A stretch of 13,405 bases of DNA from an uncultured Oscillospiraceae bacterium (lineage in GTDB: Bacteria > Bacillota_A > Clostridia > Oscillospirales > Oscillospiraceae): NCBI GenBank assembly GCA_947631215.1, contig CANRKN010000052.1, positions 1-13,405 of the forward strand, read 5' to 3'. The position numbers and the translations under genes are program-made. The notes below the pieces were generated by a model. That model made no database searches. It saw only the letters and a program-made list of their open reading frames with translations, and was not told the origin of the DNA. Every line of letters starts with the position of its first letter. Position 1 is the stretch's first letter. Below are positions 1,247-13,319 of the stretch, one piece after another.

Positions 1247-4200
1247 TTATCCCTTCCGGCGGGCGGACCGTCTGCGGATGAGCAGGACGCCCAGCAGGGC
1301 GGCGCATGTCAGCCCCAGGGCGGCCCAGGCGCCGACGGGGGCGCTGTCGCCGGTCTTGGGGGCCCGGGGAGCGGGGGTGCTGCCGCTCGTTCCGCCTGTG
1401 CCTGTGCCGGCGGGACGCTTGGTGGGGCTCGGCTTATTGGTGGGCCGGCTCGTCGGTGCCGGGGAAGAGGTCCCCTGAGAGGGACTCGGTCCCGGTGTGG
1501 AGGAGGGTCCCGGCGAGGCGCTGGGCCCAGGCGTGGCGTCAGGGTCAGGCGTGGCGTCAGGGTCAGGCGTAGCGTCGGGATCGGGCGTGGCGTCAGGGTC
1601 AGGCGTAGCGTCGGGATCGGGCGTGGCGTCGGGGTCGGGCGTAGCGTCGGGGTCCGGCGTAGCGTCGGGGTCCGGCGTAGCATCTGGGTTGGGCGTGGCG
1701 TCTGGGTCCGGCGTAGCGTCCGGGTCCGGTGTGGCGTCCGGGTCCGGTGTGGCGTCGGGGTCGGGCGAAGCGCTGGGCTCAGGCGAAGCGCTGGGCTCAG
1801 GCGAAGCGCTGGGCTCAGGCGAAGCGCTGGGCTCAGGTGAGGCGCTGGGCTCAGGCGAAGCGGTGGGCTTCGGCGTGGCCGTGGGGTCCGGCGGCCAATA
1901 TCCGCCTCCGCCGCCTCCGCCGGGAGGCGGCGCGGTGTTCTTGGTATTGGTGAAGCTGGCCTCATAGGTTTTGCCCTCCGGGATGGTCCCGGAGATGGAG
2001 GCGGCGCTCTCCGTATAGCCCTGAGCGGCGGCGTCGGTCTGTGTGACCGTGAAGCCGGCGCCGGCGGGCAGGTCGCCGGACAGGACCTTCTGGCCGTCCT
2101 TCAGGCGGATCTGCGCCGTGCCGTCTTGGAAGATCATGTTGTCGCTGTTGCCCTCCACGCCGCAGTCTACTGTCACCTCATAGGTGAAGTAGTCCTCCTT
2201 GCTGGCGGCGTTGCCGGCCACGGAGACGGATACCTGCAGCTTGCCTTTTTCCTCCGGCTCCGGCGGGACAGACTGTTTGCGGTTGGTGACGGTGACGGAC
2301 GCCTCCTCGCCGGACTGTATCACACCATCCTGCTTGTCATAGGCAGTGGTGTAACCGTCCTGGCCCTCCTCTGTCTCCGTCACGGTATAGTGCGTCCCGG
2401 CCGGGATGCCGTCCGCGTATCGGCTCTCGCCGCCCTTCATGGTGACTGTGGCTTCGCCTGCGGTGAAATTCATATCGCCATGCTCGCCGCTGAAAGAGCT
2501 GTCGTCCAGGCGAACGGTAAAGGTCCAGTCTTTGTTTTCCGCCTCCGCCAGGTCGCCCTCCAGGACCTTGGTGATACGCAGGCTGCCGGGCTGGTAGTAG
2601 GTGTTCTCTATATCCACATTGCTTTCGGCGGAATAAGAGATGACGCCGCTGCCGCTGTCCGTCGTTGTGTTCTCAAAGCGGGCGGGAGCGATCCCGGCAT
2701 TGATGTCCGTGAGCGGGTCCTCGGCCACGGTGTACATCGTGCCGGCGGGGACCAGCAGGGAGATGACGTCCCCGTGCTTCATCCGGACGGCGCCGGTATA
2801 GGTGTCGCCCGCCTTGGTGAGGGGGATGCTGCCGGTCCCGGTCATGACGGCGTAGGTATCTGTGCCGAAGAAGCTCCTTGCGCCCTCCGGGAGCGTCAAG
2901 GTAATGGTCACCGGGAATGTCTGATCGGTGGGGGCGCCGGCGCCCAGCACGGTCTTTGTGATCTCGAGCTGGCCGGTGGGGACGTTGGTGAAACGCACCC
3001 AGTCCGAATCGCTCTTGCGGATGATTCCGCTCACCGACTGCGTATCGGTATGGAAGCCGGGCGTCTCCCTCTCGGTCACTGTGTACTTTGTACCCTCGGC
3101 GAGGCCGTAGATGGTGACGGCCTGGCCCTCGTTCAAGGTGACGGTGAACTTCCCGTCTTTCGGGGTATAACTGCCTCGACTGGGTGCTGTCTGCACGTCG
3201 TCATAGCCGGTGGCAACGCGGCCTATGTAGGCGAGGTCTATGTTCAGAGGCACATCCGAGGAGTCGGTCAGGTATACGTCGAAGGGGAAGGACTTGTCCA
3301 GCGCGGTGTCCTTCGGGTCCACGGCCTTTTCGATGTACAGCCAATCCTCCGAGGGGATGACGGTCACGGTCTCGGATTCGACGGTCTGTGCTTTGTCTGC
3401 GTCACCGACCGGCCAGAATTCCGCCACGGCTTTGTTGGCGTACTCGTGGGGATGCTTCACGACGGGCGTCACGCAGGTGAAGGAGAACTCCGCCGACCCA
3501 TTCGGCTCCAGCGTCACCTCCGGCCACTTCACCTTACCGCCGGACTTAAGCGTGGGGGGACCGCCCTCCACCGCATCGCCGCCCTCCAGCTCAGCTGATT
3601 CGCCGGAGGAGGTCTTGGAGATAGTATCGGTCATGATGCGCATGGGCCGGTGTTCTTCGCCGTCGGCGTCCGGCTCCGGGACCGTGTCGCTCACCTTGAC
3701 GACGACGGAGTTTTCGGCGCTCCGGTTGGTGACGGTGATGGTGTATGTGACCTGCTGGCTCGTTCCGACGACCTGGACGTCTCCGGGACCGTATGTGACC
3801 CCGTTTATGGTTTGGGCCTTTACGATGTCTATGCCGGTGGGGGTGTTCTCTATGCGGGCCTTATTGTCGCAGTTTTTCACTACGGTCCCGCTCACTGGGT
3901 CGACCTTCTCAAAGGACTTGCTTTCTTTTTCCGTGATGGTGTACTCCGTGCCGCCCGGCAGGGCGAAGACGGCGTCCCGGCCGACGGCCAGGGTGAACTC
4001 GCCCTTATAGGTGCGGTCTCCCTCCGGCGTCAGGGTAAAGGACCTCTCGCCTACGCCGGGAATGCTGTAATGGGCGATGTACGCGCCGCCCTCGGCGAAG
4101 AAGTCGTTCTCATGGCCGGCGGTGCCGGGGTCGTCGCCCGCCGGGAGCGTGAACGCGGCCTCAAAAGTGACCTCTTCGCCGCTGTATTTTTGGTTGGCGC

Positions 4201-7200
4201 CTGCGGCCAGCGTCTTATGGAGGGTGAGCCGGCCCAGGGTGGTGATGAACCAGATGGGGACCTCGCCGCCGTCTTTTATGCCTTCCCAGAAGAATTCGTT
4301 TTTATGGCCTTCGGAGCCGTTTTCCGTCTCATCATACTTATACCACGGGTGCTCTTTGAGCCACTGGCCGGCCCTGGACTCTTCGCCGCCCTCGAACACC
4401 ACGCTGACAGTGTCCAGCGTGGTATAGACAAGACGGCGGGAGATATACTTTCCTCCCCGCCCGTCCGGGAATTCCCGGTCGGAGCCATCGCCCCAGCGGG
4501 ATATCTCTGTGCCCGCCTCGTCCCTGTAATTGAAGGTGGTGTAGTAGGAAAACAGGCTCTTCACATCGGACCACTTTGCGGTGAGGTAGATGGTGTAGTT
4601 CTGCTTCTCCAGATCGTATACCTCGCCCGCGTCGTCCACCTCGCTCAGCGGGACCATGTCGTTGGCCGATATGCGGTGTTCTTCTGTGCCAAAGGGATGG
4701 CCTTCGGAGTCTGTCAGGACCCAGCCGAGGAAGGTAGCGGCATTGCCCTCCGTTTCGGGCTTGGCGGCGCTTATGGTAATGCTGTTGCTGGTGTAGACTC
4801 CGTCGCTCCTGATGAGAGAATAGTAGTTGCCCCGGTTGGTGTCTATGGTGGTGCTGGTGCCGATCATCTCGCTGCCGTCGTCATCCACCTGGCGGAAGGT
4901 AGGCATGTTCCGCACAGACAGGTCGCTGACGCCTGTATTCAAGGCGGAGCCTTCCTCGATGCCGTCCAGGTACTGCACCCGATACAGCTTGGGCTGGGCC
5001 TGTATGGACAAAAGACCAATACGGGTACCGCCGTCATAGGGATTCTGCAGCGTGATGTAGTAATATCCGTCCTTATCCGGCCCGAGGATGCTGTCCCCGC
5101 TGAACTCCTGGCTCGTAGAAGGCCCCCGGTGCTCTTCATAGAACTGGACCGTGGGAAAAGAATCGGAGCCCTCCACCTTGCCCAGGGCCCAGTTGTAGCC
5201 GTCCGCCAGACGGAAACGGATGTTGCCGTAAATGCCGGAGGGCGTGTCATTGGTCAGATTATAGTTCGTGCCGGTCGGGCTGCCCACCACGTCATAGTCA
5301 AACGTATAGGTCTCATTGGGCACCGCCCGGTAGGACTGGGCGTTCAGAAATTCCAGCCACTGCATGGAGGAACTGCCGCTCCCATTCTTGCGGTACGCCT
5401 GTACCTCAACGCCTGCAAAGAGAGAGGACACGATCTCGGAATATTTCGGATCTGCGCTGATGAATGTGCCGTGGTCGAAGATCAAATCGCGGTTCGCGTT
5501 CTCCACGGCGATGACATATTTCCTCTGCCGGATGTGACCTATGCCTTCTACAATAGTAGGCGTGCATGTTATCGTGACTTTCATGCCGCCGGGAAGAACA
5601 GTGACAGCCGTAGCGGAGTTCTCAGGACTGCCCGGATTCATAATAGAACCGTCCAGATTGATAAGCTGCCGCGGGTCCTTCAGGAACGGGATATTGAGGC
5701 TCTGGCCGTTCAGCGACAGGGAGCGCATCTCATAGTGAGACGTATCCCCGTCCTTCAGAGAGAACTCCCACTGGCAGGAATACGTGCCCGTGAGCGGGTC
5801 ATAGACAAAGTGCTTGCCCTCAAAACTGTCCAGAGCCCCGGCATTATGCCATTTATCTTTATTCACATAACTGCCGGTTCTGGCGTTGCCCATGTACTTC
5901 GCGTTGAACTTATAGTCTGTCTCCGGCCGTGTGGTGATGACCACCCGCACCGTCTGGGGCGCGTCCGCGCTCCCGGCCGGGCCGGACCGGTAGGTGCCCG
6001 AGAGGGAGAAAAAGTCGGGGGCGTCAGCACTGGTATCTATCTCCGCGCCGCCGTTGTCGAGCTTTTCGGTCTGCTTCCATTCCACGGCCTTGCCCAGCGG
6101 ATATTCGCCGTATCCGGTCTCTGTTGGGAACTTTTCCGTAACACTATTGGCGGCAAAACCAGCAGTATCGCCTATATATACGCGGCCGTAGTGCCCGGAG
6201 GGGATGGTCACGTCTACACTCAGCCACTGGTCCTGGGTCGTGGTGGGCCGCTGGCTGCCAAAGATCTGAGCGACGCTGCCGTACTTGGCCGTTGAACTGT
6301 TTGTATCCCTGTCCCATATCTCGTAGGTGATGGGGTATTCTTTCAGCGCATAGGCGATCTGGATCTTGTCGTCAGCGTTCAGGACCGCGCTGGTCATGGC
6401 GTCCGTGGTCTCAGACGCGGAGTAATAAACGTAGTTCTTCTTCACGCCTTCCACCGTTATCTCCACGTTGCCGATACGGGCCACAGTGGCCCCGTTGACC
6501 GTCAGGGCGTATATCTCATGACCTTCTATCTGTGGAAAGTTTTCCGCATAGGTGTACCGGGGCGGATTGCTGGAATGGTCCGGGGAGGCGGCGCCCTGCA
6601 CGCCGGCCATAGCACCTGTCCAGGAGGGGTTGCCCGCCAGTACAAGCAGTTCGTCGATGGTCTTTGTCTGCCACTCCACGCCGCTGCCGACGCGGGTGGC
6701 CACTATCGCCGTGAAATGGTCGGCTGTTACCAGACCGCCGGGGAACGACATGGGCGCCAGGCCGTCTATCTCCTCCAGGGTGGCGCCGTCCTGGATCATG
6801 GCGTCCAGCTGCTCCGCGGTGAGGCCGCCCGGCTCGGGACTGGCGGAGGGCTCCGGGCTGGCCGAGGGGTCGGGAGACGCCGCCGGGTCAGGGGTGGCGT
6901 CGGGGTCGGGGGACGCCTCGGGCGCGGGGGATGTCTCCGGCTCCGGCGTGGCCGCGGGTTCAGGGCTCTCGCTGGGCGCGGGAGTCTCCCCGGGGGCCTC
7001 AGTGGCCTCTGGTTCGGCTGTTGCTTCCGGCTCCGGTGTAGCCTCTGGTTCCGCCGTGGCCTCCGGCGTGGGGGATGTCTCCGGCTCCGCCGTGGCCGTG
7101 GGGGCGGGCGTGGCCGTGGGCTGGCCCTCATACCAGGGGTCCTCTATGCCCCAGCCGCCGGCCGGGCCGCCCTGCTCCTGGGGAGCGGGCGTGGGCGGCG

Positions 7201-7414
7201 CTATGGGCGACGCCGCCGGGGAGGGCGACGGCGATGGGGAGGGAGATGCCGCCGGCGAGGCCGAAGGGGACGCCGCCGGCGCGGCTATTGGCGCGGTGCT
7301 ATCCAAAAAATCGCTGCGGGGGGGGGTGAAACTCACCATGGAAGTGAGCATCAACAGGCAGAGCAGCGCCGCTGCCAGCCTGCGGGGCAGGCTATGTTTC
7401 GTGCAGGACGTCAT
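1247..7414 (-). CDS. Giant sortase-anchored surface protein with Cna-B-like domains and Pro-rich stalks (2055 aa)
   Basis: This is a secreted, cell-wall-anchored protein, probably an adhesin or surface stalk; its ligand is unknown. Order of parts: basic and hydrophobic signal peptide (1 to about 28); Pro/Ala/Ser/Glu-rich linker (about 41-195), broken by a Gly/Trp patch (81-97); an unassigned region (about 196-810); an InlB/Flg_new-like repeat starting YRVQYLDG (about 811-948); a Cna-B/DUF5979-like domain (from about 1063, LTLHKTL); a DUF11-like domain (about 1192-1350, VTYTITVTN); four more Cna-B/DUF5979-like domains (starting LYIEKAV, GQLEITKTV, GSLRITKVL, GKLQVSV). Most have the IxK, TE.E and FTN/VTN/IEN positions expected of isopeptide-forming folds. 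Then follow a Gly7 hinge, a Pro-rich tandem-repeat stalk (about 1843-2015), APKTGD (2018-2023), a hydrophobic helix and an RRRSARRKG tail. The start is supported by the signal peptide and AGAAGG 10 nt upstream. No sortase gene is in the window. Domain names are by eye; wall anchoring is close to certain. Confidence 0.93.
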   Translation of the reverse strand: MTSCTKHSLPRRLAAALLCLLMLTSMVSFTPPRSDFLDSTAPIAAPAASPSASPAASPSPSPSPSPAASPIAPPTPAPQEQGGPAGGWGIEDPWYEGQPTATPAPTATAEPETSPTPEATAEPEATPEPEATAEPEATEAPGETPAPSESPEPAATPEPETSPAPEASPDPDATPDPAASPDPSASPEPSASPEPGGLTAEQLDAMIQDGATLEEIDGLAPMSFPGGLVTADHFTAIVATRVGSGVEWQTKTIDELLVLAGNPSWTGAMAGVQGAASPDHSSNPPRYTYAENFPQIEGHEIYALTVNGATVARIGNVEITVEGVKKNYVYYSASETTDAMTSAVLNADDKIQIAYALKEYPITYEIWDRDTNSSTAKYGSVAQIFGSQRPTTTQDQWLSVDVTIPSGHYGRVYIGDTAGFAANSVTEKFPTETGYGEYPLGKAVEWKQTEKLDNGGAEIDTSADAPDFFSLSGTYRSGPAGSADAPQTVRVVITTRPETDYKFNAKYMGNARTGSYVNKDKWHNAGALDSFEGKHFVYDPLTGTYSCQWEFSLKDGDTSHYEMRSLSLNGQSLNIPFLKDPRQLINLDGSIMNPGSPENSATAVTVLPGGMKVTITCTPTIVEGIGHIRQRKYVIAVENANRDLIFDHGTFISADPKYSEIVSSLFAGVEVQAYRKNGSGSSSMQWLEFLNAQSYRAVPNETYTFDYDVVGSPTGTNYNLTNDTPSGIYGNIRFRLADGYNWALGKVEGSDSFPTVQFYEEHRGPSTSQEFSGDSILGPDKDGYYYITLQNPYDGGTRIGLLSIQAQPKLYRVQYLDGIEEGSALNTGVSDLSVRNMPTFRQVDDDGSEMIGTSTTIDTNRGNYYSLIRSDGVYTSNSITISAAKPETEGNAATFLGWVLTDSEGHPFGTEEHRISANDMVPLSEVDDAGEVYDLEKQNYTIYLTAKWSDVKSLFSYYTTFNYRDEAGTEISRWGDGSDREFPDGRGGKYISRRLVYTTLDTVSVVFEGGEESRAGQWLKEHPWYKYDETENGSEGHKNEFFWEGIKDGGEVPIWFITTLGRLTLHKTLAAGANQKYSGEEVTFEAAFTLPAGDDPGTAGHENDFFAEGGAYIAHYSIPGVGERSFTLTPEGDRTYKGEFTLAVGRDAVFALPGGTEYTITEKESKSFEKVDPVSGTVVKNCDNKARIENTPTGIDIVKAQTINGVTYGPGDVQVVGTSQQVTYTITVTNRSAENSVVVKVSDTVPEPDADGEEHRPMRIMTDTISKTSSGESAELEGGDAVEGGPPTLKSGGKVKWPEVTLEPNGSAEFSFTCVTPVVKHPHEYANKAVAEFWPVGDADKAQTVESETVTVIPSEDWLYIEKAVDPKDTALDKSFPFDVYLTDSSDVPLNIDLAYIGRVATGYDDVQTAPSRGSYTPKDGKFTVTLNEGQAVTIYGLAEGTKYTVTERETPGFHTDTQSVSGIIRKSDSDWVRFTNVPTGQLEITKTVLGAGAPTDQTFPVTITLTLPEGARSFFGTDTYAVMTGTGSIPLTKAGDTYTGAVRMKHGDVISLLVPAGTMYTVAEDPLTDINAGIAPARFENTTTDSGSGVISYSAESNVDIENTYYQPGSLRITKVLEGDLAEAENKDWTFTVRLDDSSFSGEHGDMNFTAGEATVTMKGGESRYADGIPAGTHYTVTETEEGQDGYTTAYDKQDGVIQSGEEASVTVTNRKQSVPPEPEEKGKLQVSVSVAGNAASKEDYFTYEVTVDCGVEGNSDNMIFQDGTAQIRLKDGQKVLSGDLPAGAGFTVTQTDAAAQGYTESAASISGTIPEGKTYEASFTNTKNTAPPPGGGGGGGYWPPDPTATPKPTASPEPSASPEPSASPEPSASPEPSASPEPSASPDPDATPDPDATPDPDATPDPDATPNPDATPDPDATPDPDATPDPDATPDPDATPDPDATPDPDATPDPDATPDPDATPGPSASPGPSSTPGPSPSQGTSSPAPTSRPTNKPSPTKRPAGTGTGGTSGSTPAPRAPKTGDSAPVGAWAALGLTCAALLGVLLIRRRSARRKG
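1529..1762 (-). repeat. 18-bp tandem repeat, 13 units, encoding DPDATP
   Basis: Thirteen in-frame 18-bp units encode DPDATP, with one unit reading NPDATP. Units differ mainly at synonymous positions. Some alternate in pairs (the third-fourth and fifth-sixth from the low-coordinate end), which suggests duplication of 36-bp blocks as well as single units. Copy-number change would keep the reading frame and only lengthen or shorten the wall-spanning stalk. Confidence 0.95.
1763..1852 (-). repeat. 18-bp tandem repeat, 5 units, encoding EPSASP
   Basis: Five 18-bp units encode EPSASP directly N-terminal to the DPDATP array. Three are identical at the DNA level and the outer two differ by one or two bases, a sign of recent expansion or gene conversion. 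Related single units KPTASP (1853-1870) and DPTATP (1871-1888) precede it in the protein. Confidence 0.93.
6830..7294 (-). repeat. N-terminal Pro-rich low-complexity region of the surface protein
   Basis: This encodes about residues 41-195, built from degenerate xPxAxP, TPEPEA and SPSP units. Toward its C-terminal end it carries DPDATP, DPSASP and EPSASP, the same units as the C-terminal stalk. A 17-bp stretch (6894-6910) is identical to DNA in the C-terminal array (for example 1749-1765). The units are far less regular than in the C-terminal stalk. Confidence 0.85.
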
Positions 7415-8008: not shown

Positions 8009-8788
8009 ATGATCATCAGTATATTGGCCGTGGGCGACGTGTGCGGCGCGCCGGGCCTCGCCTTTCTGGAGAAGAATCTGAAAGCCCTCCGCCGCCAGCG
8101 GGGCATATCCTTCGTGGTGGTGAACGGGGAGAACGCCAACGTGGTGGGCGTGACGCCGGAGCAGTGCGACCGCATCCTGAACGCCGGGGCGGACGTGGTG
8201 ACCCTTGGAAACCACACCTGGGTGCGCTGGGAGCTGAAGCCCTATCTCGCCGACAACGTGCATGTGCTGCGGCCTCTCAATTTTGCGCCCCAGTGCCCGG
8301 GGCGGGGCTACGGCGTCTACCGCACGCCCTTCGGGGAGATATGCGTCATCAACCTCATGGGCCGGTTCACCCTGGACCCCAACACGGACAACCCCTTCGT
8401 GGAGGTGGACGTGCTGTTGAAAGAACTGGACCCCAAGCCGAAGATCATTTTGGTGGACATGCACGCCGAGGGCACCAGCGAGCGCCTGGCCATGGGCTAT
8501 TTCCTGGACGGGCGGGTCAGCGCCGTGTGGGGCACCCACACCCATGTGCAGACCTCGGACGCGGGCGTGCTGCCGAACGGCACGGGCTTTATAAGCGACC
8601 TGGGTATGACGGGGGCGGGCCACAGCGTGCTGGGCATCGACGTGGACCAGTCCATCAATCGCTTTTTGGGCGACCCGCCCATGCGCTATAAGCCCGGGGA
8701 CGGGGACGGGAAGATGGAGTGCTGCGTGTTCGACGTCGACACGGACACCGGCCTGTGCGTGGGGGCGGAGGCCCTTCGCATCCTATGA
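8009..8788 (+). CDS. ymdB: YmdB-family metallophosphoesterase (cyclic nucleotide phosphodiesterase)
   Basis: This 259-residue protein is close to the usual length of about 264 for the YmdB/DR1281 family. In Bacillus subtilis, YmdB cleaves 2',3'-cyclic nucleotides and influences biofilm and motility decisions. The dinuclear metal-site residues are visible: D10 in VGDVCG, E41 and N42 in NGEN, N68 and H69 in TLGNHTW, H152 in DMHAE, and H177 and H179 in GTHTHVQ. The family signature LGMTG is also present. Variations such as DMHAE (often DFHAE) and DLGMTG (often DVGMTG) are conservative. Its stop overlaps the start of the nuclease gene as ATGA (8785-8788), so the two are probably translationally coupled. 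In many Firmicutes ymdB follows rny; here it is first in its transcription unit and rny is not in the window. Confidence 0.95.
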   Translation: MIISILAVGDVCGAPGLAFLEKNLKALRRQRGISFVVVNGENANVVGVTPEQCDRILNAGADVVTLGNHTWVRWELKPYLADNVHVLRPLNFAPQCPGRGYGVYRTPFGEICVINLMGRFTLDPNTDNPFVEVDVLLKELDPKPKIILVDMHAEGTSERLAMGYFLDGRVSAVWGTHTHVQTSDAGVLPNGTGFISDLGMTGAGHSVLGIDVDQSINRFLGDPPMRYKPGDGDGKMECCVFDVDTDTGLCVGAEALRIL

Positions 8789-9888
8789 TACGCCTGCTGC
8801 ACGCCGCGGACCTGCATTTGGACTCGCCCTTTCAGGCCCTGGGCCGGGAGAAGGCCGCCCTGCGCCGGAGCGAGCAGAGAGCGCTGCTGGCCCGGATGGG
8901 GGAACTCATAAAGTCGGAGCAGGTGGATATGGCCCTGCTGGCGGGGGATCTCTTTGACGCGGACGCCCCCTATCCCGAGACGGTGCGGCTCTTGGAACAG
9001 ACCCTGCCCGCCTGGGGCGTGCCCGTATTCATCGCCCCGGGCAACCATGACTGGTACGGCCCCCGCTCCCCCTGGGCCCGGCTGGACCTGGGGGAGAACG
9101 TGCATGTGTTCACGGGCGAGGAGATAGAATGCGTCGAGGTCCCATCCCTGAACGCCCGGGTGTGGGGCGCGGCCTTCACGGGTAAATATCGAAAACCGCC
9201 CCTGGCGGGCTTCGAGGCGGAGAAGGCGGGGGATACTATTGACATCATGGTCCTGCACGGGGAGGTGGGCGTGCCCGGCTCCCCCTACGGGGCCATATCG
9301 GAGCAGGACATCGCACGAAGCGGCATGGACTATGTGGCCCTGGGCCACAGCCACGCTTATAGCGGCCTGCGCCGGGCGGGGGAGACATGGTACGCCTGGC
9401 CCGGCTGCCCCGAGGGCCGGGGCTTTGACGAGACGGGCGAAAAGGGCGTGTTCCTGGCGGAGATCGGCCCGGATGGCTGCACGGCGAAGCTCCTGGACCT
9501 GGGCGGCCGGCGGTATGAGGTGCTGACGGTGGACTTATCCGACAGCGTGGACCATGAGGGAGCCGTGCTGGATGCCCTGGGGCGGGATACGTCCCGGGAC
9601 ATATACCGCATCATCCTCACCGGCGCGCCGGAGGCGGCCCCGGATATCCCCGCCCTGCAGAGCGCCCTGGAGGGGCGGTTCTTCGCCCTGGAGCTGCGGG
9701 ACGGCACCGTCCTCAGACGGGACGTATGGGAGGGCCGGGAGGTGCTGAGCCTGAAGGGCCTTTTCCTGGACGGCCTCTGGCGGCGCTACGAGGCCGCGGA
9801 GACGGACGAGGAGCGGGCGGATATAGAGCTTGCCGCGCGGTATGGATTAGCGGCGTTAGAGAATGGGGAAGAGCCCCCGCTGGCGTGA
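8785..9888 (+). CDS. yhaO: YhaO-like DNA repair exonuclease (SbcD/Mre11-type metallophosphoesterase)
   Basis: This 367-residue protein starts in a 4-nt ATGA overlap with ymdB; an upstream in-frame ATG would overlap ymdB much further and is rejected. The calcineurin-like phosphoesterase motifs of SbcD/Mre11 nucleases are in order: D9 and H11 in HAADLHLDSPF, D55 in GDLFD, N87, H88 and D89 in GNHDW, H158 in VLHGE, and H188 and H190 in GHSH. The C-terminal part (about 260-367) is a smaller domain that would contact the partner ATPase. By family knowledge such proteins act with a SbcC/YhaN-type ATPase on broken or abnormal DNA ends. The matching ATPase gene follows, separated by an unusual 231-nt gap filled with palindromic elements. 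It could be called SbcD, but the length and the partner fit YhaO better. Confidence 0.9.
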   Translation: MIRLLHAADLHLDSPFQALGREKAALRRSEQRALLARMGELIKSEQVDMALLAGDLFDADAPYPETVRLLEQTLPAWGVPVFIAPGNHDWYGPRSPWARLDLGENVHVFTGEEIECVEVPSLNARVWGAAFTGKYRKPPLAGFEAEKAGDTIDIMVLHGEVGVPGSPYGAISEQDIARSGMDYVALGHSHAYSGLRRAGETWYAWPGCPEGRGFDETGEKGVFLAEIGPDGCTAKLLDLGGRRYEVLTVDLSDSVDHEGAVLDALGRDTSRDIYRIILTGAPEAAPDIPALQSALEGRFFALELRDGTVLRRDVWEGREVLSLKGLFLDGLWRRYEAAETDEERADIELAARYGLAALENGEEPPLA

Positions 9889-9980
9889 CCCGACGGGCGG
9901 TGAGAACCGGCAGTGTGCCGAATGCGGTTGGTGAGCGAAGCGAACTTTAGCAGCAGGCATACTGCCGGGCTCAGCCGCCC
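9889..9980 (+). repeat. Palindromic intergenic element, copy A
   Basis: The element starts at CCCGACG, the first base after the yhaO stop codon. It forms a long imperfect hairpin: GGGCGG (9895-9900) with CCGCCC (9975-9980), TGAG (9901-9904) with CTCA (9970-9973) and one bulged G, and CCGGCAGTGTGCC (9907-9919) with GGCATACTGCCGG (9956-9968), 13 bp including one G-U. The 36-nt centre contains GGTGAGCGAAGCGAAC. It is nearly identical to copy C, inverted, beyond the yhaN-like gene. The plus-strand transcript would carry the G-U form of the stem. Confidence 0.85.
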
Positions 9981-10000
9981 TGGGATAGGCTGGAATAGCC

Positions 10001-10091
10001 CGGACGGGCCCGACAGTATCCCGGCTCACTTGTTACGCTGCGCTCACGAGCCGTGAGGCCGTGACACTGCCGGCTCCCGCCGGGCGTCGGG
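10001..10091 (-). repeat. Palindromic intergenic element, diverged copy B
   Basis: On the minus strand it begins CCCGACG (10085-10091), continues with GCCGGCAGTGT, has the central GTGAGCGCAGCGTAAC and ends GATACTGTCGGGC, all in the same order as copy A. The centre is otherwise different and can form its own hairpin (CTCACG-GCT-CGTGAG). The outer stem pairs with two G-U wobbles. A and B lie head to head, 20 bp apart, and fill most of the 231-nt gap. Confidence 0.65.
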
Positions 10092-10119
10092 TTGGCATAG
10101 GGCGGCATAAGGAGAAGAT

Positions 10120-12075
10120 ATGATCATCAAAAAAATGACCGCGTGGTTCGGGACGCTGGAGGGCCGGTCCCTGGAGCTGGGACCGGGGCTCAACATCCTC
10201 TTTGCACCCAACGAGAGCGGCAAATCCACCTGGTGCGCTTTCCTGCGGGCCATGCTCTACGGCGTGGACACCGGCCAGCGGGCCCACCAGGGCCAGCAGC
10301 CGGACAAGGTGAAGTACCTGCCCTGGAGCGGGTCGCCCATGTCCGGCAGCATGGATATAGAGACCGCCGACGGCCCCGTGACCCTGCGGCGGTGGACCGA
10401 GCGGGCAAACCAGCCCATGCAGGCCTTCTCCGCCACGGTGACGGGCACGGACCTTTCAGCGGACCTCACCGCCGACGGGGCGGGACAGGCCCTCACCGGC
10501 GCGCCCCGGGAGGTATTCGAGCGCAGCGCCTTCATCCACCAGATGGGCCTGGGCCTGACCAACGACCCGGAGCTGGAAAAGCGCTTTGCCGCCATCGTCA
10601 CCGCCGGGGACGAGGAGCAGTCCTTCACCGAGACGGATAAGCGCCTGCGCGCCTGGCTGCGGCGGCGCCGGTCCGGCCGCCGGGGGGCCATCCCCGAGCT
10701 GGAGGGGGAGCTCTCCCGGCTGGACGGGAAGCTGGGCGAGATGGATAGGGCTGCTGCCGAGGTGGGCCGGCTGGAAGAGGAACTGGGTCTGGCCCAGGGG
10801 CGCCAGGAGGAGCTGGTGCGCCGCATGGAGCAGGCCCGGGCCGAGGCCCGGAAGAGGGCCCTGGCGGAGCTGGCCGCCGCCCGGGAGGCGGTGCAGACGC
10901 GGGAAGCGGACCTGAACGAGGCATCCCGCTGGGCGGAGGACGCCCAGCGGGCGCTGGACGATACTCCCTTCGCGGGCATGGAGCCCGACGAGGCGGAGAG
11001 CCAGGCCGGGGCGGATATGGATCGGCTGGAGGATCTGGACCGGCAGGCCCAGAGCCTGCCCGGGGAATGGACACCTATCATCCCCTTGATCATCGCGGGG
11101 ATATTGTGGGCGGCGACGGTGTTTCTGCCCTGCTACCCCATCGCCCCTATCGCCGGCGGGGCGGTGTTCCTGGCGGCGGCTGTGGGCGCGTGGCTCTGGC
11201 GGCGGCGCATCCGGGACCGGCGGCAGGCGCTGGAGGCTGCGGCGCGGCATATACTGGATAGCTATGACGCGGTGACGCCGGGGGGTATACGGGAGAGACT
11301 TGCGGAGTATGAGGACCTGTGGACTGAGGCCCAAAACGCGGCCCATGCCAAGACGCAGGCGGAGGCCGCGCTGGAGCGGGCCCGGGCCCGGCGGAAGGCC
11401 GCGGAGGAGCCAGTGCTGAACGGCCTGGACTTTGAACACGGCGACAGCGAGGCGGCCCGGGCTTCCCGGGCGGTGGTCCAGGGCCAGCGGGATATGGACG
11501 CGCTGAAGGAGCGGCGGGCCATGGCCGAAGGCCGGGCCCGCGCCATGGGGGACCCCATGGCCCTGCGCTCGGAGCGGGATAAGGGCCAGGACCGGCGGCA
11601 GGCGCTGCTTATGCAGGAGCGGGCCCTGCAATTGGCTATCGAGGCCATGGAGGGGGCCGACGACGCCCTCCGGGAGAGGTTCACCCCCATGGTGGCGGAA
11701 AAGGCCGCCGGGATATTCGCCGCCCTCACCGGCGGCCGCTACGACGAGATCACCCTGGCCCGGGACCTGTCCGCCAAGGCGCGGCGGGCCGGGGACGCGG
11801 TGGGCCGGGAGGCGGACTACCTGTCCCAGGGGGCCAAGGACCAGCTCTACCTGGCGCTGCGCCTGGCGGTATGCGAGCTGGTGCTGCCCCAGGAGCAGGC
11901 GTGCCCCATCGTGCTGGACGACGCCCTGGCCGCCTTCGACCAGGGGCGGATGGAGAAGGCGCTGGATATGCTGAAGGAGCTGGCCAAAACGCGCCAGGTG
12001 CTGCTGTTCACCTGCCACGTCCGGGAGCGGGAATATTTTAAGGACGACCCGGCCGTGACGGTCCAGGGGATATAA
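10120..12075 (+). CDS. yhaN: YhaN-like AAA/SbcC-type ATPase with membrane hairpin
   Basis: This 651-residue SMC/Rad50-like ATPase is the expected partner of the upstream nuclease. Seen in order: Walker A APNESGKST (29-37, with K35; Ala replaces the usual first Gly), Q-loop Q141 in FIHQMG, Glu/Arg/Ala-rich coiled coil (about 190-300), two adjacent hydrophobic segments (about 319-338 and 341-360) followed by RRRIRDRR, a second coiled coil (about 370-530), signature LSQGAKDQ (568-575) and Walker B IVLDD (597-601). A central membrane hairpin is known from YhaN-type proteins but not from SbcC. It suggests that the nuclease complex is membrane-tethered. At 651 residues it is much shorter than B. 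subtilis YhaN (about 960), mainly in the coiled coil. The start is supported by AAGGAG 5 nt upstream. The gene is flanked on both sides by palindromic elements. Confidence 0.88.
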   Translation: MIIKKMTAWFGTLEGRSLELGPGLNILFAPNESGKSTWCAFLRAMLYGVDTGQRAHQGQQPDKVKYLPWSGSPMSGSMDIETADGPVTLRRWTERANQPMQAFSATVTGTDLSADLTADGAGQALTGAPREVFERSAFIHQMGLGLTNDPELEKRFAAIVTAGDEEQSFTETDKRLRAWLRRRRSGRRGAIPELEGELSRLDGKLGEMDRAAAEVGRLEEELGLAQGRQEELVRRMEQARAEARKRALAELAAAREAVQTREADLNEASRWAEDAQRALDDTPFAGMEPDEAESQAGADMDRLEDLDRQAQSLPGEWTPIIPLIIAGILWAATVFLPCYPIAPIAGGAVFLAAAVGAWLWRRRIRDRRQALEAAARHILDSYDAVTPGGIRERLAEYEDLWTEAQNAAHAKTQAEAALERARARRKAAEEPVLNGLDFEHGDSEAARASRAVVQGQRDMDALKERRAMAEGRARAMGDPMALRSERDKGQDRRQALLMQERALQLAIEAMEGADDALRERFTPMVAEKAAGIFAALTGGRYDEITLARDLSAKARRAGDAVGREADYLSQGAKDQLYLALRLAVCELVLPQEQACPIVLDDALAAFDQGRMEKALDMLKELAKTRQVLLFTCHVREREYFKDDPAVTVQGI

Positions 12076-12094
12076 ACAAACCTGCGTGGTGCCA

Positions 12095-12186
12095 GAGCGG
12101 CCGAGTCTGACAGTATGCCTGCTGCTAAAGTTCGCTTCGCTCACCAACCGCATCCGGCACACTGTCAGACCTCGCCGCCCGTCGGG
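12095..12186 (-). repeat. Palindromic intergenic element, copy C (inverted relative to A)
   Basis: This fills most of the 137-nt gap between the ATPase and methyltransferase genes. Read on the minus strand it begins CCCGACGGGCGGCGAG. Its 62-nt core (12107-12168) matches the copy A core (9907-9968) at 57 positions. The stem CTGACAGT/ACTGTCAG replaces CCGGCAGT/ACTGCCGG by two complete base-pair swaps, and the outer CGAG/CTCG replaces TGAG/CTCA. The low-coordinate flank (12095-12105) pairs with the high-coordinate flank (12171-12180) with one bulge, as in copy A. Confidence 0.85.
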
Positions 12187-12194
12187 GGGCTTTT
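12176..12194 (+). terminator. Possible weak terminator at the edge of copy C
   Basis: GCCC-GTCGG-GGGC followed by TTTT could form a short stem with a brief U run after the ATPase gene. It overlaps the end of the palindromic element and lies just before the next ribosome site. The U run is short, so read-through into the methyltransferase gene is likely. Confidence 0.25.
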
Positions 12195-12212
12195 CAAGGA
12201 GAGGTAGAACAT

Positions 12213-13319
12213 ATGTCTGAATTTCTGGTGCCGTGCCTGTTCGGGCTGGAGGGGCCATGCGCCGACGAGCTGCGGCGGATGGGCGTCCATGACGTCCGGG
12301 CGGAGAACGGCCATGTCCGCTTTGCCGGGGACGCGGCGGACTGCGCCCGGGCCAACATCCGCCTGCGCACCGGCGAGCGGGTGCTGCTGCGGCTGGGGGG
12401 CTTCGAGGCCCCCACCTTCGACGCCCTTTTCGAAGGCGTGAAGGCCCTGCCGCTTTCCCGGCTCATCCCGAAAGACGGCCAGTTCCCCGTGAAGGGCTAT
12501 TGCCTGAACTCCGCCCTCCACTCCGTGCCGGACTGCCAGAGGATCATCAAAAAGGCCGCGGCGGAGGCTCTTGGCGCGGCGTATCATGTCCAGTGGCTGC
12601 CGGAGACCGGCGCCCTCTATCAGATCCAGTTCTCCATCGTGAAGGACTTTGCGGAGATATTCCTGGACACCACCGGCACGCCGCTCTTCAAGCGCGGCTA
12701 CCGGCCCGGCCATGTGGCGGCCCCCCTGCGGGAGACGCTGGCGGCGGCGCTGGTGGGCTTTGCCCGCTACCGGGGCCGGGACGCGTTCTGGGACCCCTTC
12801 TGCGGCAGCGGCACCATCCCCATCGAGGCGGCCCTCATGGCCCGGAACCGGGCCCCGGGGCTCAACAGGACCTTTGCCGCCCAGGCATGGCCCAACGTGC
12901 CCGCCCGGGTGTGGCGGGACGCGGCGGCGGAGGTCCGGAGCTTGGAATACCACGGGGATTACCACATCTTCGCCTCGGACATCGACCCCAAGGCGGTGGC
13001 CCTGGCCCGGGAGAACGCCCGCCGGGCCGGGGTGGAGGGGGATATCACCTTCTCCGCGGCCGACGCCCTCACCGCCCCCGCGCCCTGGGAGAAGGGCGTG
13101 CTCGTGTGCAACCCGCCCTATGGCGAGCGGATGCTGGAAAAACAGGAAGCACAAGACCTTTACAGAGCCATGGGCAGGGCCTGGCGGGCCATGGACGGCT
13201 GGCAGAAGTTCGTCATCACCTCCGAGCCGGACTTCGAGCGGCTCTACGGCGTCCCCGCCCAAAAGCGCCGCAAGCTCTACAACGGCATGATCCAGTGCAA
13301 TCTGTATCGGTATGACTGA
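12213..13319 (+). CDS. THUMP-type class I SAM-dependent rRNA methyltransferase (YpsC/RlmL-N family)
   Basis: This 368-residue protein probably methylates an exocyclic guanine N2 in 23S rRNA, by family analogy with the N-terminal half of E. coli RlmL and with B. subtilis YpsC. The N-terminal ferredoxin-like plus THUMP region (about 1-155) recognises RNA. KRGYRPG (160-166) is the family signature before the catalytic domain. The SAM-binding motif is DPFCGSGTIPIEAAL (194-208), an acidic ribose-binding region is at ASDIDPKAV (254-262), and the catalytic loop is NPPYGER (300-306). The length is typical of the single-domain family. GAGAGG, 8 nt upstream, supports the start. The gene follows copy C by 26 nt and is codirectional with the ymdB-yhaO-yhaN group; whether it shares their transcript is unclear. 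Confidence 0.92.
   Translation: MSEFLVPCLFGLEGPCADELRRMGVHDVRAENGHVRFAGDAADCARANIRLRTGERVLLRLGGFEAPTFDALFEGVKALPLSRLIPKDGQFPVKGYCLNSALHSVPDCQRIIKKAAAEALGAAYHVQWLPETGALYQIQFSIVKDFAEIFLDTTGTPLFKRGYRPGHVAAPLRETLAAALVGFARYRGRDAFWDPFCGSGTIPIEAALMARNRAPGLNRTFAAQAWPNVPARVWRDAAAEVRSLEYHGDYHIFASDIDPKAVALARENARRAGVEGDITFSAADALTAPAPWEKGVLVCNPPYGERMLEKQEAQDLYRAMGRAWRAMDGWQKFVITSEPDFERLYGVPAQKRRKLYNGMIQCNLYRYD

Follow-up and report, generated by a model that had tools for sequence, protein, structure and literature searches.

We describe a family of short, non-coding palindromes dispersed through one genus of gut Oscillospiraceae, which is REP/REPIN-like in build and is probably moved in trans by an enzyme that acts on single-stranded DNA and does not look like a Y1 transposase. 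All elements share one plan, in which an unpaired 5′ YGAC tag precedes a long imperfect hairpin that conserves its G.T and G.A irregularities, usually ends in a GNA-type cap and folds best on the tagged strand. The copies are dispersed, their stems covary, most show the strand bias and the tag, dimers carry their tags outward, one doublet insertion is visible, and there is little or no preference for the sense orientation.

Three elements surround a yhaN-like gene

The window, the whole stretch of 13,405 nt that was analyzed, contains three elements. Copy 1 (A-type) occupies 9890..9982 and folds on the plus strand, with the 5′ tag CGAC at 9891-9894 and the cap GCGAAGC at 9935-9941. Copy 2, likewise A-type, lies at 12093..12185 and folds on the minus strand (tag CGAC at 12184-12181, cap at 12140-12134). 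Both belong to the training set of our covariance model R1, with which they score 108.5 bits (E 1e-21) and 105.9 bits (E 4e-21), respectively. A sequence-only reading of this DNA had described 62-nt palindromic cores at 9907-9968 and, as reverse complement, at 12107-12168, and its details hold: 57 of 62 positions are identical, the differences fall at positions 2, 4, 15, 59 and 61, full pair swaps link 2/61 and 4/59 while position 15 is a lone change, and the outer stem carries a further swap (TGAG/CTCA to CGAG/CTCG). The cores are real palindromes, but the extent given was too short, as the unit measures ~93 nt (9890-9982 on the plus and 12093-12185 on the minus strand). Between 9889-9983 and 12092-12186, compared on opposite strands, 84 of 95 nt are identical. 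As single-stranded DNA, the two 93-nt units fold with z = -4.45 and -4.84, respectively, beating 200 of 200 dinucleotide shuffles.

The same reading had counted only two copies and overlooked a third, on the minus strand at 9996..10090 (R1 62.6 bits, E 8e-12, outside the training set; DNA fold z = -3.90). This C-type copy has the stem and 5′ tag of the A-type and a different apical part. Its untagged end and that of copy 1 point towards each other, and the two form an inverted doublet whose inserted unit of 218 nt (9889..10106) begins immediately 3′ of the upstream gene's stop codon. That gene (8719..9888, plus strand; ORF start uncertain) encodes a metallophosphoesterase (PF00149, 2.6e-14) that we take to be YhaO/SbcD-like. 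The yhaN-like ATPase gene lies between the elements (10120..12075, plus strand; AAA_23 1.4e-6 and AAA_27 9.5e-6, above their cut-offs), and an RlmL-like RNA methyltransferase gene occupies 12213..13319 (plus strand; PF01170 7e-51, PF22020, PF02926). The copies do flank the yhaN-like gene, as had been noticed, but not as a conserved unit: a close relative, G002, lacks the left doublet and carries at the right site a copy with a different stem. The position of the elements around yhaN is incidental.

Two further features of the window deserve mention. A 600-codon ORF (10456-12258, minus strand) that extends across copy 2 and along the strand complementary to yhaN is probably spurious and presents an annotation risk, and 1247-7414 (minus strand) encodes a 2055-aa surface protein that combines DUF7601/DUF5979 repeats with a long tract of P-D-A-T repeats and carries a PKTGD sorting-like motif.

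The family is dispersed within one genus

In a collection of 84,980 species, a 25-mer of the core occurred in eight stretches from two genomes, G001 and G002, both rabbit-gut Oscillospiraceae MAGs. BLAST with one copy (E ≤ 1, fragments counted) returned 34 matches in G001 and 59 in G002, and the covariance model at least 21 and at least 55, respectively, among the matches listed. Across the genus, at least 13 of 35 genomes had model matches at E ≤ 0.01 (122 candidates scored per genome, among the matches listed). Among 300 genomes sampled from the family, for each of which 3 candidates were scored with DNA and 14 with the model, strong matches came only from G001 and G002. The weaker matches within the genus are hairpins that have diverged but follow the common plan, and the GC-GNA-GC cap is kept in 14 of 16 diverged copies inspected. 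G316 has at least 30 matches (best 2e-5), and its diverged hairpins alternate in orientation in a BIME-like manner. Two stretches of this genome, which gave no Y1_Tnp match, are BIME-like arrays in which hairpins of two types alternate in orientation and the linkers recur (G316:C12:11195-11665 and G316:C19:8845-9197).

The sequence-only reading had proposed that a mobile family would reveal itself in a genome-wide covariance search by many intergenic copies in both orientations with covarying stems, and this is what we found. Restriction to two copies, always at the same locus, was not observed, since other copies exist and the G002 site differs. Searches of phages and plasmids gave no match, and an exact 22-mer occurred 0 times among viral contigs. 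In a literature search that had most subscription journals outside its reach, we found no description of the family, including in the available text of PMC3733652, PMC8040213, PMC1525189, PMC4686876, PMC8266576 and PMC3116915.

Stems covary while tag, cap and irregularities persist

We collected 81 A/B cores from 458,767 nt of DNA around elements and aligned 22 of them, chosen for diversity, as alignment A1; the covariance model has a length of 93. G002:C52:6867, whose arms come from different stem types, was left out of A1 and included in the 81-core counts. In A1, whose copies, like all those counted here, are kin and represent non-independent events, 93.5% of cells are paired and both sides have changed in 17 of 31 pairs. 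The covariation score was 0.288, compared with 0.123 (sd 0.011) after shuffling (0 of 500 reached it) and with a maximum of 0.085 for a slid control, over which the A1 structure is favored because it was hand-drawn from the same copies. The number of further pair types was less striking (29 vs 25.5 shuffled; 15 of 500). Over the 81 cores, the Watson-Crick fraction was 0.926, against 0.21-0.36 when slid. The inner arm types agree across the hairpin in all but two cases, a gross chimera and a mismatch of a single pair (window copy 1), and outer and inner stem layers occur in several combinations.

With DNA parameters the tagged strand forms a more stable fold than the complementary one in 75 of 81 cores, and with RNA parameters it does so in 76. 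On this strand G.T outnumbers A.C by 106 to 15, and 93 of the 106 G.T fall at two positions. An unpaired 5′ YGAC tag is present in 74 of 81 copies. The apex loop is GNA in 61 cores, GNNA in 2 and other in 18; GNA/GNNA loops on at least two G-C pairs are described in the available part of PMC4686876 as extraordinarily stable DNA mini-hairpins (Tm of GCGAAGC, 78 °C). Tandem G.A occurs at the apex (TGAG/CGAA) and in the next layer, where CGAG/CGAG is the most numerous class (16 of 81). In this YGAR context tandem G.A is a sheared-pair motif, and on the opposite strand it would become C.T. Most elements are single rather than in doublets. Among 13 close pairs, 11 are inverted, all with tags outward like those of REPINs, two are tandem and none is head-to-head.

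Insertion of a doublet and the search for a mobilizer

The orthologous site in G002:C2 lacks the window doublet, and its flanks are 91-95% identical. The filled site reads GCGTGA[..]ATAAGGAG in the window, the empty one GCATAGAGATAAAGGAG in G002:C2. No target duplication was seen at this one clean empty site; a single empty site is not a measurement of transposition, and there is no target duplication to mark the mechanism. Doublets may be the moving unit, with singles mostly their remnants. At another locus, the G002 orthologue (C1, ~97417) of G001:C20:3483 retains only a short remnant that resembles the inverted foot of the element.

The sequence-only reading had named a RAYT as a possible mover and suggested looking for a transposase gene with the same ends. 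In the DNA around elements, no such gene was found. Classical REP/REPIN elements moved by a RAYT (Y1) that was missed in drafts or since lost would resemble ours in strand bias, in inverted doublets and in having a tagged, imperfect hairpin, and Y1_Tnp genes are present in 12 of 35 genus genomes, five of them among the 13 with elements. Y1 is, however, no commoner with elements (5/13) than without (7/22). It was not found in eight of the 13 element-bearing genomes, all drafts (G001, G002, G313, G316, G317, G323, G327 and G329), which include G001 and G002, the richest in close copies. Ten Y1 loci (30,735 nt) contained no element, the tag is YGAC rather than GTAG, and the hairpin is twice as long. 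We therefore consider it unlikely that a Y1/RAYT transposase moves the elements.

TnpA-REP is reported in the available text of PMC8266576 to recognize folded REPs on one strand only and to require irregularities. The one-strand folding and irregularities of our elements match these needs, which makes a single-strand enzyme of another kind our preferred guess. Such a trans-acting enzyme would recognize the folded single strand and cut and join single-stranded DNA, as TnpA-REP does for REPs. Repeated proteins near elements (surface proteins and tyrosine-recombinase-like paralogues) were rejected as evidence for a mobilizer because sampling was centered on elements.

The elements might instead be MITEs, mobilized in trans by a DDE transposon whose inverted repeats form their ends, a reading consistent with the palindromic ends, the dispersed copies and the existence of a full form with GGCCGCCC outer repeats. 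We judge it distinctly unlikely: no target duplication was seen at the one clean empty site, the stems vary yet stay paired where transposase-bound ends should keep their sequence, and no autonomous copy was noticed in the element-centered DNA.

Placement argues for a DNA-level element

Genomic context was assigned with a crude gene finder that miscalled one window gene. By its calls, 94 elements comprise 32 in convergent, 47 in unidirectional and 5 in divergent gaps, 4 in called ORFs and 6 at edges; 84 of the 88 placed elements are intergenic. Among gaps of 80-1000 nt, those lacking an A/B element were unidirectional in 81 cases, divergent in 31 and convergent in 12, compared with 38, 4 and 25, respectively, for gaps with one. 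An element that acts at the RNA level (as mRNA stabilizer, terminator or processing site) and has spread through selection or by copying could explain this convergent enrichment (25/67 with an element vs 12/124 without). The folding strand is stabler as RNA too (76/81), and the strand bias and the G.A motifs would be equally at home in RNA. REPs in convergent gaps are often transcribed. Within unidirectional gaps, however, 25 elements are sense and 22 antisense, which argues for function at the DNA rather than the mRNA level; TTTT follows the 3′ arm within 12 nt in only 2 of 81 cores, and an Rfam search of 9400-12700 gave six matches with E values of up to 5, all of them far from its cut-off. 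An RNA-level element thus appears quite improbable, and the earlier preference for a DNA-level, MITE/REP-like dispersed palindrome over an mRNA motif is supported by the sense:antisense ratio together with the dispersed copies and covarying stems.

T-run terminator-like hairpins occur within 25 nt before the tagged end in 17 of 81 cores, against 1.9% of random positions. Within 40 nt, the tagged end has 18 and the opposite end 3 (P 0.0015 with orthologues kept in); this polarity includes at least one case of orthologous sites counted double, and some of the "terminators" resemble repeats themselves. Landing behind genes and terminators may be tolerated. In six genomes, the gap before one gene is an insertion hot spot that holds different element types and orientations, or another palindrome family (G327:C22:36756, G308:C9:4273, G324:C5:19802, G313:C3:81689, G317:C4:72811 and G001:C2 ~106070). 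We take the downstream gene, from its appearance, to be clpB.

Some orthologous stems differ in whole blocks

At the copy 2 site, G002 carries an A-type element with other stem layers. Over 19 orthologous pairs, four are identical across all 22 stem pairs counted, and six show 2-6 simultaneous Watson-Crick double changes. These six represent five distinct sites, three of which compare a single element with a doublet member, so that two are clean (window 12124/G002:C2:91156 and G001:C3:48393/G002:C6:127937). The remaining nine comprise eight without a Watson-Crick double change and one with one. One-sided changes over the orthologous pairs amount to 21 cells, many of them G.C/G.T. Whole matched stem blocks that differ at once point to replacement by, or conversion from, another copy, and block replacement fits better than stepwise compensation in this small clean sample. 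A resident copy could be replaced by another via inter-copy recombination, with both arms staying matched.

Hairpin selection and template-switch homogenization had earlier been posed as the two choices; block replacement or conversion supplies a third answer, and pure homogenization is disfavored. Template switching at a cruciform (quasi-palindrome correction), which would match the arms with no selection on the fold, does predict paired changes with few intermediates, as at pair 32/75 (CG 41, TA 39, TG 1). We find it very improbable, as the conserved G.T and G.A irregularities, which such correction should erase, persist with the unpaired tag in diverged copies, and as stem types are common to several loci, which indicates spread by copying. 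A folded single-stranded recombination site of a tyrosine recombinase, resembling an integron attC, would share structure conserved above sequence and one folded strand, and three tyrosine-recombinase-like paralogues adjoin elements in G002, but we give this reading hardly any credence because such adjacency is expected in DNA chosen around elements, crossover-site repeats and cassettes were not seen, and the recombinases were identified from the look of their sequences. Tyrosine-recombinase-like paralogues that lie close to elements and to large surface-protein genes (G002:C24:26336-27182, G002:C17:351-1197, G002:C24:30716-31637 and G002:C60:6652-7795) perhaps relate to phase variation.

A second palindrome nests in the hairpin apex

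A second palindromic repeat of ~115 nt lies exactly within the apical loop of six A-type hairpins and one C-type hairpin in G001/G002 (L062, L063, L067, L087, L041, L150 and L068). Its own cap is AGCGAAGC or AGCGCAGC, and elsewhere it sits inside another hairpin family. Seven of 25 distinct copies are exactly at an A/C apex, and one more has one arm only; these cases have common boundaries and could go back to a small number of events. A statistic for a general placement of the second element in hairpin loops gave no support (mean flank duplex energy -18.0 vs -17.5 cross-paired and -17.1 shuffled), and our claim is therefore limited to the direct apex cases.

Implications

If the favored reading of a REP/REPIN-like family moved by a single-strand enzyme is true, abundant gut bacteria are a setting in which REP-like elements arose or survived independently of the GTAG/RAYT system, with stems that evolve freely while fold, tag and irregularities stay. 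The copies would then form a natural mutational scan of what a hairpin-recognizing enzyme reads and define a clear search for that enzyme. By extension, covariation and dispersal in gut Clostridia need not imply structured RNA. More tentatively, the family may be part of an undescribed Clostridia superfamily of GNA-capped, multi-layer palindromes, moved by a non-RAYT single-strand enzyme, inserting tag-first behind terminators, prone to nesting and subject to block-wise stem turnover.

Comparison with known systems

The family is REP/REPIN-like by build: it has many dispersed, mainly intergenic copies and inverted doublets. We do not file it as REP because tag, length and RAYT association fail: YGAC (74/81) stands in place of 5′ GTAG (or GGAG), the palindrome measures 93 nt rather than 20-50 nt, and no association with a RAYT (Y1) was found in drafts of unstated completeness. 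As far as the available text of PMC3116915 goes, the REPINs and REP doublets of Pseudomonas are alike in their inverted doublets as a unit, intergenic location, hairpins and strand-specific features; they differ in length (20-50 nt vs ~93 nt here), tag (GTAG vs YGAC), host (Firmicutes here) and their RAYT, not found here in eight of 13 element-bearing genomes. CGTC-tagged REPs, including Rickettsia RPE-4/6 and dRS3 (PMC3733652, available part), are similarly tagged palindromes without a known dedicated transposase, lie near gene 3′ ends and form dimers. They differ in that they are mostly alpha-Proteobacterial, with stems of 8-9 bp that begin with AT, loops of 4-5 nt and CCA tails; our elements have neither the CGTC tag nor this stem, loop and tail, and neither "Firmicutes" nor "Clostridi" occurs in the main text of that paper. 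The BIMEs of E. coli (PMC8266576, available part) are alternating inverted hairpin arrays, as in the diverged relative family of G316, and differ in REP type and length and in that G316 has no Y1 match. Finally, IS elements such as IS1397 and IS621 are known to enter REPs (PMC1525189, available part), which likewise places mobile DNA inside palindromes; in our case, the inserted DNA is a small non-coding palindrome as well.
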